A DNA stretch of 64,000 nt, taken from contig JAILDV010000050.1 in the NCBI GenBank assembly GCA_024688885.1, positions 1 to 64,000 of the forward strand. The letters run 5' to 3'. Shown here one piece after another: positions 16,793 through 61,963 of the stretch. The DNA is from Bacteroidaceae bacterium (GTDB lineage: Bacteria; Bacteroidota; Bacteroidia; Bacteroidales; Bacteroidaceae). Numbering within the stretch: position 1 is the stretch's first letter; every line of letters begins with the position of its first letter. The notes under the pieces were generated by a model. It was not told the DNA's origin. It saw only the letters and a program-made list of their open reading frames with translations, and made no database searches. The position numbers were made by a program, and so were the translations under genes.

Positions 16793-16865
16793 AAAGATGC
16801 GATTGAGCGAGTGCAGAGTCAAACTTGTTTGAACTATGCCGAGCGTGAGCCTCTTCGGCGAAGCC
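16793..16865 (+). repeat. 74-bp hairpin element copy A
   Basis: AAAGATGCGATTGAGCGAGTGCAGAGTCAAACTTGTTTGAACTATGCCGAGCGTGAGCCTCTTCGGCGAAGCC. Confidence 0.95.
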
Positions 16866-16895
16866 AACAATAAAAAATGAGGAAATGAAAGAATG

Positions 16896-16968
16896 AAAGA
16901 TGCGATTGAGCGAGTGCAGAGTCAAACTTGTTTGAACTATGCCGAGCGTGAGCATCTTCGGCGAAGCC
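16896..16968 (+). repeat. 74-bp hairpin element copy B
   Basis: Second half of a 103-bp tandem duplication (16791-16893 / 16894-16996) with two mismatches. Confidence 0.95.
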
Positions 16969-24352: not shown

Positions 24353-25567
24353 ATGTATAACGTAAATAAAGTACGCGCGGACTTTCCCATTCTTTCCAGA
24401 GAAGTGTATGGAAAGCCCTTGGTGTATTTAGACAATGGTGCAACAACGCAAAAGCCCCGTCAGGTGGTGGAGGCGATGGTGGACGAATACTACAACGTAA
24501 ATGCGAACGTACATCGTGGGGTGCATTTCCTCTCCCAACAGGCAACCGACCTGCACGAAGCAAGCCGCGAGGTGGTGAGGGCATTCATCCATGCACGCAG
24601 CACCAACGAAATCATCTTTACACGCGGCACAACGGAGAGCATCAACCTGCTCGCCTTCTCATTGGGCGAAGCCATGGTGAAGGAAGGCGACGAGGTGGTG
24701 GTGAGCGCCATGGAGCACCACTCCAACATCGTGCCTTGGCAGATGATGTGCGAGAGGAAGGGCGCACTGTTGCGGGTGATTCCCATGACCGACGAAGGCG
24801 AGTTACAGCTGGATGCCCTCGAAGAGCTCCTCACAGAACGCACACGCATTGTGTGCTGCACCCAAGTGAGCAATGTGCTGGGCACGGTCAATCCCGTCAA
24901 GGAAATAGTGCGGATGGCACACGACAAGGGCATCCCCGTGCTTGTGGATGGCGCTCAGTCGGTGCCCCACATGCAGGTGGACATGCAGGACTTGGATTGC
25001 GACTTTTTCGCCTTCTCAGGTCACAAGGTCTATGGACCCACAGGCGTGGGGGTGCTCTATGGGAAAGAAGCCTGGCTGGAGAAACTCCCTCCCTATCAGG
25101 GAGGTGGAGAAATGATAAAGAACGTGACCTTTCAGAAAACCACCTACAACGCCCTTCCCTACAAGTTTGAGGCTGGCACCCCCGACTATGTGGCAACCCA
25201 TGCCTTGGCTAAGGCGCTCAACTACGTGAACGACTTGGGCATGGAGAACATTGAGGCGCACGAACGGGAACTGACTCTCTATGCCTTGGAACAGCTGCAG
25301 CGCATTGAGGGCATGCGGATCATCGGGCGCGCCCGACAACACGATGCCGTCATCAGTTTCTTGGTGGGCGACATCCATCATCTTGACATGGGCACCCTGC
25401 TCGACCGTCTGGGCATTGCCGTCCGCACTGGTCATCATTGCGCCGAACCTCTGATGAGAAGGTTGGGAATCGAAGGCACAGTGCGGGCATCATTTTCATT
25501 GTACAACACGAAAGAAGAGGTGGATGTTCTTGTGGATGGCATTGAACGTATCAGGAAAATGTTCTGA
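24353..25567 (+). CDS. sufS: cysteine desulfurase SufS
   Basis: YLDNGATTQKP; FSGHKVYGPTGVGVLYG; RTGHHCAEPLM. Confidence 0.95.
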   Translation: MYNVNKVRADFPILSREVYGKPLVYLDNGATTQKPRQVVEAMVDEYYNVNANVHRGVHFLSQQATDLHEASREVVRAFIHARSTNEIIFTRGTTESINLLAFSLGEAMVKEGDEVVVSAMEHHSNIVPWQMMCERKGALLRVIPMTDEGELQLDALEELLTERTRIVCCTQVSNVLGTVNPVKEIVRMAHDKGIPVLVDGAQSVPHMQVDMQDLDCDFFAFSGHKVYGPTGVGVLYGKEAWLEKLPPYQGGGEMIKNVTFQKTTYNALPYKFEAGTPDYVATHALAKALNYVNDLGMENIEAHERELTLYALEQLQRIEGMRIIGRARQHDAVISFLVGDIHHLDMGTLLDRLGIAVRTGHHCAEPLMRRLGIEGTVRASFSLYNTKEEVDVLVDGIERIRKMF

Positions 25568-27069
25568 TGAAGCTGGCAAAACTGACATTTTTAAGTGAAT
25601 ATAGCCGATACCTATGGGGCTTGCTGATAGTGGCTCTGTGTTGTTGGTGCGCAAGCCGATGGAACGTGTGGTTTGACAACCCCGAAGAGGATGCATACGA
25701 ACCATCGGACGTGCCGACAAGGATATTGCTGACTTTTGGCGATGAGGACGGAGTGCGCAACCGCAACATCAGCTGGACATGCGGCAAAGTGGTGAAGGAG
25801 TCGTTTGTGGAGCTGGTGGAGTTAAACGATAACGGTAACCTTAACGGTAACCTTAACGATAACCTTAACTGTCAGCCCTCAGCCCTCAGCCCTCAGCCCT
25901 CAGCCCTCAACTCTCAACTCTCAACTGCCACAGGCGAGGTGTTTGTGTCCCGCAGTGGCAAGGCTGCCTATTATGTGGCAAGACTGAGAGACCTGAAGGC
26001 GGGGCACACTTATCGGTATCGGGTGTGTACGGGGGGCAAGAAATCTGAATGGCACGAGTTTCATCTGCCTCCATCCCATGAGCCCGAGACATCGTTTCTA
26101 TATATGGGCGACATACAGGACTCCATCGGGGGCATTGCCAACCAGCTGCTACGCGAGGCGTTCGGGCGCAATCCCGACACGGAATTCCTCGTGTGTGGCG
26201 GCGACCTGACCGAACGCCCCACCGATGCCTATTGGGGTGAGACGTTCGAGAGCCTCGACAGCGTGGGGCTGTCGGTGCCCGTGCTGACCATCACAGGCAA
26301 CCACGACTATCTGAAGGGCGTGGTCTGTCAACTGGAACGTCGTTTCTCTCTCATCCACTCCTATTTCCTCGACTCGATGGTGGGAGAGAATCAGGTGTTC
26401 ACCGTGCGGTATAAGCATGTGCAGCTTTTCTGTCTGGACAGCAATCGGGAGTTCTTCTACCTGTGGACACAGCGTCGGTGGCTGGAGGAGCAACTGGAAG
26501 GGAGTCGGGCGAAATGGAAGATTGTGGTGCTGCACCATCCTCTCTACTCCATTCGCGGCAGCATGAACAACCTCATCCAACGGTGGATGTTCGACGACAT
26601 CATCCGTGAGCACGGGGTGGATGTGGTGCTGCAAGGACACGAACATGCCTATGCCCGCATGACCACCAGCTCTCAGCCCTCAACTCTAAACACTCAACTC
26701 TCAACTCTAAACTCTCAACCCTCAACTCTAAACTCTCAACTCTCACCCCCCATCTACACCGTCAGCCACTGCTCTCCCAAGAGTTACCGCATTGGATTTG
26801 ACGAGAGGGTGGACAAGTTCGGAACGGGGAGCAGATATTATCAGATGGTGCGCACAAGGGGTGACACGCTCTTTCTCACAGCATGGGATGCCAACGATGG
26901 GACACTCTACGACTCGCTCTACATCGTGAAACAGGGTGCCGACACACAGGTGGTAGATGCCGGCAGGGACATACCCGAGAGACTCACCTTCACCCCCGAC
27001 CCCCACAACAAAAAAGACGTTGCCTTTGCTGAGCGCATCAAAGCATACAAGCGAAGAAAACATCTTTGA
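25567..27069 (+). CDS. metallophosphatase family protein (FN3-like domain plus phosphoesterase)
   Basis: YMGDIQD, CGGDLTE, TGNHDYL, HHPLYS, LQGHEHAYARM; TGATG overlap with the sufS stop. Confidence 0.88.
   Translation: MKLAKLTFLSEYSRYLWGLLIVALCCWCASRWNVWFDNPEEDAYEPSDVPTRILLTFGDEDGVRNRNISWTCGKVVKESFVELVELNDNGNLNGNLNDNLNCQPSALSPQPSALNSQLSTATGEVFVSRSGKAAYYVARLRDLKAGHTYRYRVCTGGKKSEWHEFHLPPSHEPETSFLYMGDIQDSIGGIANQLLREAFGRNPDTEFLVCGGDLTERPTDAYWGETFESLDSVGLSVPVLTITGNHDYLKGVVCQLERRFSLIHSYFLDSMVGENQVFTVRYKHVQLFCLDSNREFFYLWTQRRWLEEQLEGSRAKWKIVVLHHPLYSIRGSMNNLIQRWMFDDIIREHGVDVVLQGHEHAYARMTTSSQPSTLNTQLSTLNSQPSTLNSQLSPPIYTVSHCSPKSYRIGFDERVDKFGTGSRYYQMVRTRGDTLFLTAWDANDGTLYDSLYIVKQGADTQVVDAGRDIPERLTFTPDPHNKKDVAFAERIKAYKRRKHL
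25823..25928 (+). repeat. in-frame hexamer (AACGGT/AACCTT) plus heptamer (CAGCCCT x5, CAACTCT) array inside ORF
   Basis: Encodes NDNGNLNGNLNDNLNCQPSALSPQPSALNSQLSTA. Confidence 0.95.
26674..26750 (+). repeat. in-frame heptamer array (11 units) inside ORF
   Basis: CAGCCCT-CAACTCT-AAACACT-CAACTCT-CAACTCT-AAACTCT-CAACCCT-CAACTCT-AAACTCT-CAACTCT-CACCCCC; encodes QPSTLNTQLSTLNSQPSTLNSQLSPP. Confidence 0.95.
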
Positions 27070-27186: not shown

Positions 27187-29235
27187 ATGATACACATGGA
27201 ACTAAAGAAATCCTTCATTTCCAGCCCCATCGCCTTCGTCGTCAATCTGGTGCTGGTGTATTTCGCCTATGGTTTGTGCCGACTGACATACCTGTTCGAA
27301 AACTGGTCGGTGCTGTCGGAGGGCTTCGACACGCTCTCGTTTTGGGATGCACTGAGGGGATGTTGGATGTTTGACACTTCTGCCATACTCTACACCAATA
27401 TCCTTTATGCCATCATGATGCTGGTGCCGTTGCACTGGAAGGAGACTGACGGCTGGCAGACGGTGGCGAAATGGGGGTTTGTGCTGGTCAATTCGCTGTG
27501 CATCATCGCCAATCTGGCTGATGCTGTGTATTTCCAATATACGGGGCGACGCACCACTTCCTCGGTGTTTCAGGAGTTCAGCAACGAGGGGAATATTGGC
27601 GATGTGATTGGCATCGAGCTATGGCGGCACTGGTATCTGGTGCTGGTGGGCATGGTGCTGATGGCTGGACTGTGGATGCTGTATGTGAAGCCTCATGGCA
27701 AGCTGAACCTGCACCTGCCGAAGAGGAGACTCACTTATTATGTCATCCAAACATTATGTTTCGGACTCTACATCCCCATCACCATTGCGGGTATGCGTGG
27801 GGGAGCCACTACGGCTGTGCGCCCCATCACCATCAGCAATGCCAATCAGTATGTGAACCGACCTGCCGAGGCTGCACTGATTCTGAACACTCCTTTCTCG
27901 ATGATTCGCACCATCAATAAGAATGTGTTTGCCGACCCCAAGTTCTTTTCCCGAAACGAACTGGACATGATTTACAGCCCAGTCCATTTCCCTGCCGACA
28001 GTGGCACGATGAAGCGGAAGAACGTGGTGGTGTTCATCATGGAGAGTTATGGCAAGGAGTATATCGGGGCACTCAACGATAACCCTAACGATAACCTTAA
28101 CCCTAACTCTCAGCCCTCAGCCCTCAGCCCTCAGCCCTCAACTCTAAACTCTAAACCCTCAACTCTCACCCCCTTCACCGATTCGCTGATAGGGAAGTCG
28201 CTGACGTTCGACCTCACCATTGCCAATGGGCGAAAGAGCATTGACGGCATGCCTTCGATTCTTTCCAGCATTCCACGTTTCATCGAGCCCTTCTTCCTCA
28301 CTCCTGCATCGCTGAATGAGGTGAGCGGTCTGGCAGGGGAGTTGGGCAAGGTGGGGTATGAGTCTGCCTTCTTCCACGGTGCGGAAAACGGGTCGATGGG
28401 GTTTGAGGCTTTTGCCAAAGCCACAGGGTATCGGCACTATCTGGGCAGAACTGAATATAACCAAGACATGCGGTTCGGCGGCGACAAGGACTTCGACGGC
28501 ATGTGGGCTATCTGGGACGAGGAGTTCCTGCAGTTCTTTGCCCTGAAGATGACGGAGATGAAGGAACCGTTCATCACCTCTGTGTTCACTGCCAGTTCGC
28601 ACCACCCTTATGCCGTGCCGGAACGATACAGGGACATCTACAAGGACGAGCCAGGCGATGCCAACGTCATGCACAAGTGCATCCGCTATGTGGACCATGC
28701 ACTGCGTCTCTTTTTCCAGACGGCAGAGAAACAGCCGTGGTATAAGAACACCATCTTTGTGCTCACTGCCGACCACACCAACAAGAATTCGGATCCTCGG
28801 TATCAGACAGAACTGGGCGTGTGCAGCGTGCCCATCCTCATTTTCGACCCATCGGGCGACATCAAGCCCGAACGTCGCCACTGCATTGCCCAACAGATTG
28901 ACATCATGCCGACAGTGCTGAATTATCTGGGCTATGACAAGCCCTATGTGGCATTCGGACAAGACCTGCTGAACACTCCCGACCAAGACACGTGGGCGGT
29001 GACCAACAACAACGGGATGTACCACTATGTGAAGGGCGACTACGTGCTGCTTTTCACCGAAAGTGGGCAAGCCAAGGCGCTCTACAACTACAAGCAGGAC
29101 TGGTATATGAAGCAGAACCTGCTGGGCAGGACCGGGGAGACGGAACAGCAGATGGAACGTGAAGTGAAAGCACTCATCCAGTCCTACATGGAGCGGATGA
29201 CCGAAGACCGTCTGACATGGAAGGATGAACGATGA
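27187..29235 (+). CDS. LTA synthase family protein / sulfatase-like membrane transferase
   Basis: N-terminal TMs; NVVVFIMESYGKEYIGAL; ANGRKSIDGMPSILSS; FVLTADHTN. Confidence 0.88.
   Translation: MIHMELKKSFISSPIAFVVNLVLVYFAYGLCRLTYLFENWSVLSEGFDTLSFWDALRGCWMFDTSAILYTNILYAIMMLVPLHWKETDGWQTVAKWGFVLVNSLCIIANLADAVYFQYTGRRTTSSVFQEFSNEGNIGDVIGIELWRHWYLVLVGMVLMAGLWMLYVKPHGKLNLHLPKRRLTYYVIQTLCFGLYIPITIAGMRGGATTAVRPITISNANQYVNRPAEAALILNTPFSMIRTINKNVFADPKFFSRNELDMIYSPVHFPADSGTMKRKNVVVFIMESYGKEYIGALNDNPNDNLNPNSQPSALSPQPSTLNSKPSTLTPFTDSLIGKSLTFDLTIANGRKSIDGMPSILSSIPRFIEPFFLTPASLNEVSGLAGELGKVGYESAFFHGAENGSMGFEAFAKATGYRHYLGRTEYNQDMRFGGDKDFDGMWAIWDEEFLQFFALKMTEMKEPFITSVFTASSHHPYAVPERYRDIYKDEPGDANVMHKCIRYVDHALRLFFQTAEKQPWYKNTIFVLTADHTNKNSDPRYQTELGVCSVPILIFDPSGDIKPERRHCIAQQIDIMPTVLNYLGYDKPYVAFGQDLLNTPDQDTWAVTNNNGMYHYVKGDYVLLFTESGQAKALYNYKQDWYMKQNLLGRTGETEQQMEREVKALIQSYMERMTEDRLTWKDER
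28074..28170 (+). repeat. in-frame hexamer plus heptamer array inside ORF
   Basis: Encodes NDNPNDNLNPNSQPSALSPQPSTLNSKPSTLTP. Confidence 0.95.
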
Positions 29236-29272
29236 AAGATGGACGATGAATCTTTCAGAATTAGGAATTAGG

Positions 29273-29346
29273 AAAGATGCGGTTGAGCGAGTGCAGAGGT
29301 CAAACTTGTTTGAACTATGCCGAGCGTGAGCATCTTCGGCGAAGCC
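29273..29346 (+). repeat. 74-bp hairpin element copy C
   Basis: Near-identical to copies A/B; followed by a heptamer array. Confidence 0.95.
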
Positions 29347-29364
29347 AATGAGGAATGAGGAATT

Positions 29365-29419
29365 GAATCTCTCAACTCTCAACTCTAAACTCTAAACTCT
29401 CAACTGTCAATTGTCAACA
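29365..29419 (+). repeat. heptamer array CTCTCAA/CTCTAAA/CTGTCAA directly before ATG
   Basis: CTCTCAACTCTCAACTCTAAACTCTAAACTCTCAACTGTCAATTGTCAACA-ATG. Confidence 0.92.
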
Positions 29420-30433
29420 ATGGAACGCATGAAAACGCGCAACCACGCTTTCGACCTCCTGTGCGGACTCTGCATTCTGCGCATGATTCTGCTGCACGTC
29501 ATGGGCATGTGCGGCTATCGTGGTGAGTTCTGGTTCACGAAGGTGATGGCGTGGTCGTTCTTTTTCATGTCTTTCTTCTTTTTCAAGGCTGGCTATTTCA
29601 ACAAGGGAGTCTCTACCCCCACATGGACCTATCTGAAGGACCGTGTGAAGCGGCTGCTGGTGCCCTATGCCACATGGGGCATCATCGGCAGCATCGTGTT
29701 CTTTGGTTTCCTGCTGGTGTTCCCCGACAATTTCCAGAGATATTATAAGATTCTGCGCTGGTCACACCTGTGGGAAGACAGCCATGTGTGGGGCAACCCT
29801 CCGCTGTGGTTCCTGTTCTCTTTCTTCATGTCCTATGTACTGGTGCATTTCCTCAATAAGGTGAAGTACCTGCGCTGGGTGGCTGTCGCTTTCCCCTTTG
29901 TCAGTTACTACCTATGGACACAGCACAACCCTTTGTGGATGAGCCTTGACAACCTGTTTGCCGGTGTGTTCTTCTTCTATCTCGGTAGGGGATGGCGATG
30001 GCTGCAGAGCCGCGTGCCGAGGGGGTGGCTCATTATCCTGAGCCTTTTGCTCATAGCCGAGTTTGTGGTGGGCAACCGCATGTGGCACGGAGAATATGAC
30101 ATGAGTCTTAACAAGTTCGTGCAGAACCCATGGGGAGCAGGCATCAACACCCTCTGCGCCTTGGTGGGAATATCAGGACTACTCTTGGCACTGCCCCTGA
30201 AGCGCGTGCCGCTTGTGGGCTTCATCGGGGAGCATTCCATGGTGTTTTTCGTGGCACACTACCCCCTCCTCTTCCTTTATGCTTTCACCCACATCGCTTT
30301 CCATCATTCCGTAGCCAACCATTGGGAGGATGTCATCCTGATGATGCTGTTTGTGCTCGTCAGTTGTGCTTGGCTCACGCCCTATGTGGAGAAGGTTCCG
30401 TGGCTGAGTGGACGATGGAAGAAAAAGAATTAG
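29420..30433 (+). CDS. acyltransferase family membrane protein
   Basis: Multi-TM; NHAFDLLCGLCILRMILLH...FFFFKAGYF; C-terminus WLTPYVEKVPWLSGRWKKKN. Confidence 0.8.
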   Translation: MERMKTRNHAFDLLCGLCILRMILLHVMGMCGYRGEFWFTKVMAWSFFFMSFFFFKAGYFNKGVSTPTWTYLKDRVKRLLVPYATWGIIGSIVFFGFLLVFPDNFQRYYKILRWSHLWEDSHVWGNPPLWFLFSFFMSYVLVHFLNKVKYLRWVAVAFPFVSYYLWTQHNPLWMSLDNLFAGVFFFYLGRGWRWLQSRVPRGWLIILSLLLIAEFVVGNRMWHGEYDMSLNKFVQNPWGAGINTLCALVGISGLLLALPLKRVPLVGFIGEHSMVFFVAHYPLLFLYAFTHIAFHHSVANHWEDVILMMLFVLVSCAWLTPYVEKVPWLSGRWKKKN

Positions 30434-31784: not shown

Positions 31785-31846
31785 AACAATAGGCGAAGCA
31801 AACAATGAAAAGAATGAGGAATTGAATCTGTCAACTGTCAACTATC

Positions 31847-54575: not shown

Positions 54576-54648
54576 GGCTTCGCCGAAGATGCTCACGCTC
54601 GGCATAGTTCAAACAAGTTTGACTCTGCACTCGCTCAACCGCATCTTT
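54576..54648 (-). repeat. 74-bp hairpin element copy D (reverse orientation)
   Basis: Reverse complement matches copies A/B; flanked by CACTTTT heptamer-like sequence. Confidence 0.95.
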
Positions 54649-57518: not shown

Positions 57519-57650
57519 AGCATGTACAATTTGACCATTTACAATGTACAATTTATTTGGCAATTGGAAAAATAAAGAAAACATAAAACCACGGATTTAG
57601 CTCTAACTCAACTTTGACTTCGTCGAGCTAAAGGTTCGTAGTCCAAAAAA

Positions 57651-58937: not shown

Positions 58938-58945
58938 TACCTTTG
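58938..58945 (+). promoter_or_regulatory. -7 box TACCTTTG for S41 peptidase
   Basis: TAnnTTTG ~22 bp before ATG 58967. Confidence 0.6.
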
Positions 58946-58966
58946 CACACAAATCAACATTGCAAT

Positions 58967-60628
58967 ATGAAAAAGTTTCTATCACTTTTAGTTTTTTGCC
59001 TCTCGTTCCTGACCTCCTTCGCCCAGTTGGAGCACAATTTCTCCGTGGCGAAATATCTGGACATCTTCAACAGCATTTACCGTCAGCTGGACATCTTCTA
59101 TGTGGATTCATTGGAAGCTGACAAGGTCATCCGCGTCGGCATTGATGCCATGACCAACGAGCTGGACATCTACACCAAGTTCTATCCCGAGGAAGACATG
59201 GGTGAGTTGAAGATGATGACCACAGGCAAATATGGCGGCATTGGTTCCATCATCCGCATGAGGAAAGACTCCACTGTCATCATTCAGGAACCATACGCAG
59301 ACATGCCTGCTGCTGAAGTGGGTTTGCAGGTGGGCGATGTGCTGCTGAAGATTGACGACAACGACTTGAAAGGCATGAACACGACAGAAGTGAGTGAACT
59401 GCTGCGTGGCGAACCCGGCACAACCTTCATGCTCCGTGTTCAGCGTCCGGGAGAAAAGAAGACACGCGACTTCAAGATTACACGCCGAAGCATCAAAATC
59501 CCCTCCATTCCCTATCATGGCTTGGTGGGCGATGCCGGCTACATCTTTCTGAGAGAGTTCACCGAAGGTTGCTCCAAGGATATGCGCAAAGCCATCATCT
59601 CCCTGAAAGAAAAGGGAGCCAAGAAAATCATCCTCGACCTTCGCGGCAATGGCGGTGGTCTGCTCAATGAAGCCATCGACATCGTCAACCTCTTCACTCC
59701 CAAAAACCTGAAGATTGTGGAGACCAAAGGCAAGATGGTGGCAGCCAACTACTCCTACTCCACCCGCAACGACCCGCTCGACCTCGACATTCCGCTCGCT
59801 GTGCTCGTTGACGACGAAACAGCCAGTGCGGCAGAAATTGTGTCGGGTGCTCTGCAAGACCTCGACCGTGCTGTCGTTGTCGGTTGCGACACCTACGGCA
59901 AAGGTTTGGTGCAGAGTTCCCGCGAACTCCCCTACAATGGCAGCATCAAGCTCACCACAGCCAAGTATTACCTGCCATCCGGACGCTGCATCCAGAAGAT
60001 TGACTACAAGAAATTGCGTGAAGCAGCTGAAATCTACCGCACCACAGGCAAGAAAGTGGACACAAAGGCAGACAGCATCAAACGGATTTTCCACACAGCA
60101 GGAGGTCGTGAAGTGACCGAAGGCAACGGCATCAAACCCGACATCGAAGTGAAGCACGACACCCTCGCCAACATCGTCTATTACCTCTCCAACGATGATG
60201 TTCTGACCGACTGGGGCACCAAATACTGCCAGAACCACCCCACCATCCCTGCCGTGAAAGACTTCGCCATCACCGATGCCGACTATGCCGAGTTCAAGCA
60301 GATGGTCAAGGACAGCAACTTCCAGTATGACCGCCAAAGCGAAAAGCGGTTGGCAGACCTCAAGAAGATTGCCGAGTTTGAAGGCTACTACGAAGATGCC
60401 AAACCAGAATTTGAAGCCCTCGAAAAGAAGTTTGCCCACAACCTCGACCGTGAGATGGACCGCAAACAGGGCGACCTCCGCAAGGTGATGGCAAACGAGA
60501 TCGTACGCCGCTACTACTACCAGGCAGGCACCATAGAAGAAGCACTGAAAGACGACGACGACCTGAAACGAGCCATCGAACTGCTCAACGCCCCTGCCGA
60601 ATACAACAAAATACTGAAAGCCAATTAA
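58967..60628 (+). CDS. S41 family C-terminal processing peptidase with PDZ domain
   Basis: PDZ EVGLQVGDVLLKIDD; LDLRGNGGGLLNEAIDI; VLVDDETASAAEIVSGALQDLDRAVVVG. Confidence 0.92.
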   Translation: MKKFLSLLVFCLSFLTSFAQLEHNFSVAKYLDIFNSIYRQLDIFYVDSLEADKVIRVGIDAMTNELDIYTKFYPEEDMGELKMMTTGKYGGIGSIIRMRKDSTVIIQEPYADMPAAEVGLQVGDVLLKIDDNDLKGMNTTEVSELLRGEPGTTFMLRVQRPGEKKTRDFKITRRSIKIPSIPYHGLVGDAGYIFLREFTEGCSKDMRKAIISLKEKGAKKIILDLRGNGGGLLNEAIDIVNLFTPKNLKIVETKGKMVAANYSYSTRNDPLDLDIPLAVLVDDETASAAEIVSGALQDLDRAVVVGCDTYGKGLVQSSRELPYNGSIKLTTAKYYLPSGRCIQKIDYKKLREAAEIYRTTGKKVDTKADSIKRIFHTAGGREVTEGNGIKPDIEVKHDTLANIVYYLSNDDVLTDWGTKYCQNHPTIPAVKDFAITDADYAEFKQMVKDSNFQYDRQSEKRLADLKKIAEFEGYYEDAKPEFEALEKKFAHNLDREMDRKQGDLRKVMANEIVRRYYYQAGTIEEALKDDDDLKRAIELLNAPAEYNKILKAN

Positions 60629-60662
60629 ATGTACAATGTATCTTTCACAATTAGGAATTAGG

Positions 60663-60736
60663 AAAGATGCGGTTGAGCGAGTGCAGAGGTCAAGCTTGTT
60701 TGGACTATGCCGAGCGTGAGCATCTTCGGCGAAGCC
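60663..60736 (+). repeat. 74-bp hairpin element copy E
   Basis: As copy C, with two A-to-G changes in the TCAAACTTGTTTGA stem. Confidence 0.95.
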
Positions 60737-60778
60737 AATGAGGAATGAGGAACCTTTAGCTCGACGGAGTCAATTGAA

Positions 60779-60907
60779 TCTCTAAACCCTAAACCCTAAA
60801 CTCTAAACCCTAAACTCTAAACCCTAAACCCTAAACTCTCAACCCTAAACTCTAAACCCTAAACCCTAAACTCTAAACCCTAAACTCTCAACTCTCAACT
60901 GTCAACT
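60779..60907 (+). repeat. longest heptamer array (~17 units CCCTAAA/CTCTAAA/CTCTCAA)
   Basis: CTCTAAACCCTAAACCCTAAACTCTAAACCC...CTCTCAACTCTCAACTGTCAACT, 10 bp before ATG 60918. Confidence 0.97.
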
Positions 60908-60917
60908 AAAATAAATC

Positions 60918-61127
60918 ATGTCCCTTCGCAACAACAAAGCAGCACGGTTGAACCGCTACATGATGTTCGGCACCCTGTTCCTTGGCATTCTCGTCCTTGG
61001 ATGCGTCTTCGCATTCCTCTATCTGTCCTACAACAAGACCGACAATCCCTTTTTTGAGCAACCAAAAGAAGAAGGGGCAGCAGATAGCATCGTACTGATT
61101 GTCAACGACTCAACACTCTTGGAATAA
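60918..61127 (+). CDS. small single-TM protein
   Basis: 69 aa, one TM (YMMFGTLFLGILVLGCVFAFLYL). Confidence 0.55.
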   Translation: MSLRNNKAARLNRYMMFGTLFLGILVLGCVFAFLYLSYNKTDNPFFEQPKEEGAADSIVLIVNDSTLLE

Positions 61128-61129
61128 AC

Positions 61130-61963
61130 ATGAAAGTGAAAAGTGAAAAACGAAAAGTGAAGAATCTATTTTACCTGCCATTCGGATGGGGGTTACTTTT
61201 ATTTTTCACTTTTCACTTTTCACTTTACTCTTTACCCTCCCGCGCCCAATGCCCGACCGAAAACACAGCCTTCAAGGCAGGCGAACGGCTCACCTACGAC
61301 CTCTACTTCAACTGGAAATTCATCTGGGTAAAATGCGGTGCAGCCTACTACACCATCAAGGCAGCCCAATACAAAGGACAGGCAGCCCTGCGCAACGACC
61401 TGCTCTTCACCTCCAACAAGCGGTGTGACGCGGTCTTCACCATGCGCGACACCCTCATCTCCTACATCACCCCCCAACTCGTACCCCTCTACTTCCGCAA
61501 AGGCTCCCTCGAAGGGAAGCACTACACCGTCGATGAAGTGTGGTACACCTATCCAGGCGGCAAGAGCCATGTTCGGCAGAAATTCCTCAATCGTCACGGC
61601 GAACTCTCCGAACACCATCACGAAAGCAACGATTGCAACTACGACATGCTCTCCATCCTCTCCCTTGCCCGCTCGTTCAATCCCAAGAACTACAAGATAG
61701 GGCAGCGCATCCATTTCCCCATGGCAACAGGAAAAAAGGTGGAAGAACAGACACTCGTCTATCGGGGCAAGAAAGACTGGAAAGCCAATGACAAAAAGAC
61801 CTACCACTGTCTCATCTTCTCCCTGCTCGACTACGAAGAAAAAGACAAAGACAAGGAACTCCTCCGCTTCTACGTCACCGACGACTCCCGCCACATGCCT
61901 GTTCGCATTGACTTCTACCTCCGTTTCGGCACCGCCAAAGCCTATCTGGCAAAATCAAACTAA
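61130..61963 (+). CDS. DUF3108-like secreted protein
   Basis: FKAGERLTYDLYFNWKFIWVKCGAAYY pattern after the signal peptide. Confidence 0.7.
   Translation: MKVKSEKRKVKNLFYLPFGWGLLLFFTFHFSLYSLPSRAQCPTENTAFKAGERLTYDLYFNWKFIWVKCGAAYYTIKAAQYKGQAALRNDLLFTSNKRCDAVFTMRDTLISYITPQLVPLYFRKGSLEGKHYTVDEVWYTYPGGKSHVRQKFLNRHGELSEHHHESNDCNYDMLSILSLARSFNPKNYKIGQRIHFPMATGKKVEEQTLVYRGKKDWKANDKKTYHCLIFSLLDYEEKDKDKELLRFYVTDDSRHMPVRIDFYLRFGTAKAYLAKSN
61133..61227 (+). repeat. inverted pair of GTGAAAA and TTTTCAC heptamer arrays within signal-peptide codons
   Basis: AAAGTGAAAAGTGAAAAACGAAAAGTGAAG ... TTTTTCACTTTTCACTTTTCACTTTAC. Confidence 0.9.

Follow-up and report, generated by a model that had tools for sequence, protein, structure and literature searches.

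We propose that the spacer at 60630–60917 of the window (the stretch of 64,000 nucleotides that we analyzed) is probably a stack of independent repeats, which accumulated in an operon by insertion of a cassette, slippage or recombination of heptamer arrays, and nested entry of a hairpin element. The DNA comes from a rumen Prevotellaceae genome of 3.03 Mb (98% complete), in which the window lies on contig C30; the assemblies we compared are metagenomic, and genome-wide counts come from pattern searches. The parts named by a preliminary description of this DNA are all where it placed them: a hairpin at 60663–60736, a heptamer array at 60780–60900, and an ATG at 60918, with the array, which runs on to 60907 as CTGTCAACT, stopping 10 nt short of the ATG. 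It called this array the longest, which is correct within the window, but the genome has a run of about 150 bp among those listed for contig C29. The features are collected in Table 1.

Table 1. The spacer and related features (window positions unless a contig is given)
Feature	Position	Strand	Basis or remark
S41 peptidase with PDZ domain, upstream gene	58943–60628	+	Pfam PF03572, 1.2e-47
Left end of cassette: remnant of ATGTACG-type heptamer array and CTTTCAC linker	60630–60648	+	
AATTAGG heptamer array, left part, split by the hairpin element	60649–60664	+	sequence
Hairpin element copy E, 74 nt	60663–60736	+	covariance model, 95 bits
AATGAGG heptamer array, right part	60737–60752	+	sequence
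21-nt module CCTTTAGCTCGACGGAGTCAA, second small nested repeat	60753–60773	+	its end is similar to the element's 3' mini-hairpin
Linker AATTGAATCT between the two array types	60772–60781	+	AATTGAATCTCTMAA at 16 exact places genome-wide
CTCTAAA/CCCTAAA/CTCTCAA heptamer array, closing with CTGTCAACT	60780–60907	+	TRF
Downstream gene, 69-aa small membrane-type protein	60918–61127	+	orthologous loci L094–L113
Second complete cassette, with hairpin (29273–29346)	29249–29419	+	alignment with close relative G029
Degenerate cassette without hairpin, GAATGAGGAATTGAATCTGTCAACTGTCAAC at 31812–31842 (L173)	31812–31846	+	
Two hairpin copies (16793–16865, 16896–16968) in AATGAAAG-like heptamers, no CTCTAAA array	16793–16968	+	
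Hairpin copy in GTGAAAA array, no CTCTAAA array	54576–54648	-	common to G029 and a third genome (L013, L079, L088)
RAYT-like ORF (L031)	C49:58189–59292		DHLH and YLRDNP motifs, C-terminal extension

The period of 7 is specific and not due to chance. When the window is compared with itself at lag 7, fifteen regions reach 22 or more matches out of 28, versus 0–2 regions at the other lags from 3 to 13 and at 15 (lag 14 is a harmonic). Genome-wide, a 21-mer pattern of three units had 302 + 217 matches on the two strands, as compared to 48 + 32 for the reversed control. Further heptamer families in the window are GAATTAT, AATTCCT, ACTTTTC, and GATGTAC. For the array at 60780–60900, TRF reports 17.3 copies of CTCTAAA with 86% matches and a score of 158. 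All three of its frames have stops, so it is not coding.

The spacer follows the plan of a modular cassette, with the order (ATGTACG or ATGRACG)n - CTTTCACA - (AATTAGG/AATGAGG)n - AATTGAATCT - (CYCTMAA)n - (CTGTCAA)n; some copies miss modules. Adding TATTGAATCTCTAAT variants to the 16 exact occurrences of the junction AATTGAATCTCTMAA gives about 18 cassettes in the genome. Cassettes L157, L158, L166, and L169 likewise have the CTTTCAC linker 3' of GATGTACGATG heptamers, and so does the G029 cassette at the site orthologous to window position 25571. The 21-nt module is nested at one common site in four cassettes (including L011, L019, and L162); it also lies at 57633 on the minus strand of the window, a variant (GACGAAGTC) is found elsewhere, and the loci that we read give 10 distinct contexts. 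The same order of parts is indeed present at 29249–29420, as had been described, and the degenerate version that was placed near 31790–31846 is visible as a remnant. These similarities had been taken to indicate a composite, reproducible unit rather than chance adjacency. The cassette does recur, about 18 times, but the hairpin is not an obligatory part of it: it is in 5 of the roughly 18 cassettes (one of these hairpins is truncated).

Comparison with relatives shows that the cassette is an insertion. The genes for the S41 peptidase and the 69-aa protein (which has no Pfam family over the cut-off) abut or overlap in about 20 congeners (e.g., ...AAGTAATGAGTC...), so the whole composite at 60640 was acquired. 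The presence of the cassette is swapped between the window and G029 at two other places, as expected if it recurs as a unit: 29225–29425 has 200 bp in the window and 15 bp in G029, where the cassette is absent, while the ortholog of 25571 has a hairpin-free cassette in G029 and the window has none. We also noticed that at the ortholog of 60640 in genomes G012 and G010 (L104 and L105), a different palindromic insert, CCCTCTCCCC..GGGGAGAT, lies in the same gene junction, which makes this junction a repeated target for inserts. On the other side of the 69-aa gene, before the gene for a DUF3108 protein, the stretch 61125–61234 has a 36-bp core between heptamer arrays in inverted orientation, (GTGAAAA)n and (TTTTCAC)n; comparable pairs whose inner ends are ATCTAAGTTACC are found at other loci and in relatives. 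At the ortholog of 25571 in G029 (C19:34154–34301, L154), the original start codon of a phosphoesterase gene was seemingly displaced by a cassette, and the start is now apparently an ATG just 3' of it.

The hairpin has a distribution of its own. The genome has about 34 near-full copies, most of them in other heptamer arrays without a CTCTAAA array. The preliminary description tied the hairpin to the array and named in advance the finding that would count against this, namely that most genomic copies lack the linked array; a genome search found just that, with about 5 of about 34 copies in a cassette. Because the hairpin is in a minority of cassettes and most hairpins are outside them, we reject a fixed unit of hairpin plus array: the hairpin is a separate, nested element. 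Among 30 copies with flanks, there are two main contexts, ...AATTAGG-AA[element]AA-TGAGG... and ...GTGAAAAGTG-AA[element]AA-CAGTGAAAA.... Copy E is 97% identical to the copy at 29273–29346. At the site of the two copies at 16793–16968, G029 has about 40 bp instead of 233. In other genera, the same core is found in arrays of CAATGGT (L062–L065), AACAGAG (L075), and AAAGTTT (L069) and in tandem with itself. Some copies in other genera lie outside of heptamers (L066, L069 at 1137, L070, and L071), so arrays are not required.

Where the hairpin does lie in an array, the register of the array is kept. In the spacer, the AATTAGG array resumes as AATGAGG at 60737, and the register returns once the element is removed. 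The junctions in this genome and in G029 are nearly always GAA^AGATGC on the left and GAAGCC^AA on the right (^ marks the boundary). With the element and AA removed, the flanks match across the junction at 5.31 of 7 positions in this genome, versus 4.07 when permuted (maximum of 1000 permutations, 4.83), and at 5.53 of 7 in other species and genera, versus 3.54 (maximum 4.71). The corresponding values for G029 are 5.87 and 4.99, with little power since its flanks are mostly alike. In this genome, 20 of 28 junctions match at 5 or more of 7 positions at lag 7, as compared to 14.6% of the window's intergenic AA positions and 4.0% of its AA positions overall.

Empty sites give the same picture. 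At one site (L012/L218), G029 has the orthologous array without the element, and the sole difference is 74 bp plus AA. At another (L016/L228), the array of G029 lacks the hairpin, and the comparison shows one extra heptamer. Other copies are shared: L013 and L079 are the same copy in the two genomes, and the arrays of L013 and L088 differ in length by exactly 7 bp, or one heptamer. Among the 14 orthologous probes found in G029, two have the full element (L013 and L026), one has a remnant (L014), and the rest have none in the fetched stretch. Some of the contrasts between empty and filled sites could stem from loss of the repeat and not from its gain. A 9-bp target-site duplication would also fit one register diagonal, but we disfavor it because L012/L218 has no extra heptamer, although L016/L228 has one more. 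And although the outer stem is an inverted repeat, as in a MITE, the clean empty site at L012/L218 shows only AA as extra and no longer duplication, which does not fit a MITE; the extra heptamer at L016/L228 would still allow one there.

The fold of the hairpin is conserved. From 26 divergent sequences (element length 73–75 nt), we derived an 18-pair structure with an outer 7-bp stem, two inner helices, and a 3' mini-hairpin (GRC-GAA-GYC); in copy E, the outer stem is AAAGATGC/GCATCTT, followed by an inner hairpin and the mini-hairpin GGC-GAA-GCC. Overall, 94.9% of cells are paired, versus 25–42% in slid structures, but this figure is favored because the structure was derived from the same 26 sequences. 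Changes on both sides of a pair are stronger evidence: 11 of the 18 pairs have compensatory changes, and the covariation score is 0.305, versus 0.114 when shuffled. The loops GRTTRAGCGAG and CCGAGCGTGAG are near-invariant. DNA folding of single sequences gave z scores of only -0.8 to -2.1, which is not exceptional, so the structure rests on covariation and not on folding energy. The fold could be of RNA or of single-stranded DNA.

Nearly all occurrences of the element fall within a single family of Bacteroidota. Across the family, blastn found at least a partial match in 61 of 151 genomes and in 16 of 30 genera. A covariance model search of a phylum-wide sample found it in 3 of 297 genomes, including this one, which is a lower bound given the stricter filters. 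Among named records, only uncultured Prevotellaceae or Bacteroidales metagenome assemblies (several of them RUG isolates) contain an exact match to a 40-mer of the hairpin. We also considered carriage by plasmids or phages, which we reject, as the plasmid and phage collections that we searched had no match in either.

We propose the following history for the spacer. A modular cassette of heptamer arrays and fixed linkers was inserted between genes that abut or overlap in relatives, as the comparison above shows. Its arrays would grow and shrink by 7 bp, by slippage or recombination, as suggested by the 7-bp difference at one other locus. A non-autonomous hairpin repeat of 74 nt, of the same kind as cyanobacterial small dispersed repeats (SDRs) and REPINs, would have inserted at a GAA^ site within the AATTAGG array and left the register intact; the continuity of the register and the empty sites point to this step. 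Mobility would probably need a trans-acting enzyme that recognizes the hairpin in single-stranded nucleic acid, and we speculate that the first candidate might be an HUH/Y1 (RAYT-like) protein. The arrays may mainly be a tolerated landing pad and neutral spacer, being G-poor and rich in stops between genes and open-framed within them.

Alternatively, the hairpin might not transpose at all and might spread solely through homologous recombination or gene conversion, with the arrays supplying homology on both sides. The intact register at the junctions would fit, as would the tendency of R-type copies to lie in R-type flanks and K-type copies in K-type flanks. At L014/L217, the element's interior has been exchanged for another heptamer array within one site, so recombination does shuffle parts too. 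However, the same core lies in arrays that share no sequence (AATTAGG, GTGAAAA, and CAATGGT) as well as in array-free copies (L069 at 1137 and L066), and homology between arrays cannot explain this spread. We consider recombination as the only route to be unlikely.

We hold a similarly doubtful view of the idea that we are dealing with a REPIN or REP doublet moved by the RAYT-like Y1 protein of the same genomes (the L031 family). The element is small, structured, and high-copy, and the genome does encode an ORF with DHLH and YLRDNP motifs. Distant relatives of L031 are widespread in the family, often with several matches per genome. RAYT-like genes are found in 43 of the 151 family genomes, and the element is in 31 of these 43, as compared to 30 of the 108 others (odds ratio 6.7, p = 9e-7, ignoring the kinship of the genomes). 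Also, the structured partners of TnpAREP genes in Bacteroidetes subclass 2.6 are atypical (PMC6006769). On the other hand, L031 scores 20.9–22.5 bits against Pfam Y1_Tnp, where the cut-off is 23, and 30 of the 61 genomes with the element have no RAYT-like gene that we detected. No GTAG, GTGG, or CGTC tag lies beside the hairpin at either end among the copies listed from this genome and G029. Nor does the element adjoin the RAYT-like genes: at 11 loci (L031 and L248–L257), there was no match to the model within 1.5 kb. We regard a RAYT-like enzyme as a lead for the element's mobilizer. L032 was considered as a transposase and rejected, as its 215-aa ORF looked kinase-like and unrelated on inspection by eye.

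It is less probable still that hairpin, arrays, and ATG are one functional regulatory unit, such as a 5' leader or a riboswitch-like element, whose parts travel and act together. The identical order at 60640 and 29249, the relatives in other species (L033, L037, L038, and L061), and the conserved fold are what a single unit would predict, and 12 of 15 hairpin copies between co-directional genes point the same way as those genes. But 13 of the roughly 18 cassettes have no hairpin, most hairpins have no such array, and hairpins occur in all gene configurations, including between convergent and between divergent genes. Nor does the ATG follow as a rule, as had been suggested: a start lies within 80 nt after 18 of 47 arrays, versus 10 of 47 in the reverse direction, which is a modest bias toward the start codon side. 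Rfam had no family at the gathering score in the window, and none around the locus even at E up to 1. Given the modest bias, the variety of gene configurations, and the stops in the 60780 array, we see the composite mostly as mobile filler that is tolerated, with its orientation weakly shaped by the operon, and not as a dedicated regulator.

CTCTCAA-type arrays also occur within coding sequence: at 25863–25932 and 26672–26752 in a metallophosphoesterase-like ORF (25567–27069), and at 28099–28172 in the ORF of a sulfatase-like protein (27187–29235). In contrast to the 60780 array, which is stopped in every frame, these are open-framed and encode STLNSQP-like heptapeptides. The array at 26672 is 21 nt shorter net in G029, with the frame still open.

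The resemblance to telomeres that had been pointed out is a coincidence of sequence, and we give virtually no weight to a telomere or linear-replicon end signal: CCCTAAA is the plant-type telomere repeat, but we reject this reading because the array lies between genes of an operon, in mid-contig (the contig exceeds 146 kb), has units mixed with CTCTAAA and CTCTCAA, and is of a type dispersed over many contigs and inside coding sequences.

Beyond the stack of independent repeats at this locus, we tentatively suggest, as a broader claim that may well fall short, that the hairpin represents an undescribed family of structured mobile elements, nearly limited to one family of Bacteroidota, for which heptamer arrays, whatever their sequence, are safe places to land, and that the arrays in turn are co-mobile cassettes of several heptamers which travel from one operon spacer to another. 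If so, very small mobile DNA would form a nested system of two layers outside of cyanobacteria. It would touch on how bacterial heptamer arrays originate and spread and on how elements of under 100 nt move. Because both layers have filled and empty sites in a pair of related genomes, and because the core is in different arrays across genera, the layers can be studied separately. The repeats also account for part of the spacing between genes and of the displacement of start codons in these genomes, and within genes the same repeats add heptapeptide loops to proteins.

Among known systems, REP/REPIN-RAYT systems are likewise short, structured, non-autonomous, high-copy repeats with relatives of Y1 transposases (here putative ones) in the genome (PMC3116915, PMC2817692, PMC3733652, PMC6006769). 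Ours differs in that we saw no GTAG/CGTC tag, in the lack of an adjoining element at RAYT-like genes, and in the heptamer-array context.

Heptamer arrays are known from cyanobacteria, Beggiatoaceae, some Bacteroidetes, and Xanthomonas (PMC4679880, PMC4692102). According to passages of these two papers that cite Mrazek et al. 2007, heptamers are the favored unit of long SSRs in many bacteria, and slippage was proposed. The TAACTGA direct repeats of Beggiatoaceae, cyanobacteria, and some Bacteroidetes (MacGregor 2015, PMC4679880) resemble our arrays: they are intergenic 7-nt tandem arrays, often just 5' of starts, with 7-nt steps between relatives and mixed heptamers, and Bacteroidetes are included. 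The arrays described here have other units (CYCTMAA, AATTAGG, and GTGAAAA), and each cassette combines several units with fixed linkers and a nested hairpin. They are not arrays of the TAACTGA type, which would be a forward TAACTGA unit just 5' of starts, since the units differ and starts follow the arrays at the frequencies given above. As compared to 7-nt SSRs and the GGGAATC arrays of Xanthomonas, ours are not of the G-quadruplex type, and they travel as cassettes. Our search on heptamers in Prevotella found no paper in the literature collection that it covered.

The SDRs of Nostoc, as described by Elhai et al. in 2008, are reportedly very small (21–27 nt), dispersed, and non-coding, often lie in tandem heptamer arrays, and have nested insertions; their structures are said to be backed by compensatory changes. 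Our hairpin is likewise dispersed, non-coding, and nested in other repeats, and it is also similar in lying in heptamer arrays (20 of 28 junctions, at the threshold above) and in having compensatory changes in 11 of 18 pairs. It differs in length (73–75 nt) and in host (Bacteroidota), and we liken the two by their features, not by sequence. The 21-nt module of the cassettes is closer to the size of an SDR than the 74-nt hairpin is. Passages of PMC3116915 cite the existence of SDRs in Nostoc and other cyanobacteria. The closest known parallel is the cyanobacterial SDR in its heptamer arrays, and by analogy the system described here would be a Bacteroidota counterpart with a larger element.
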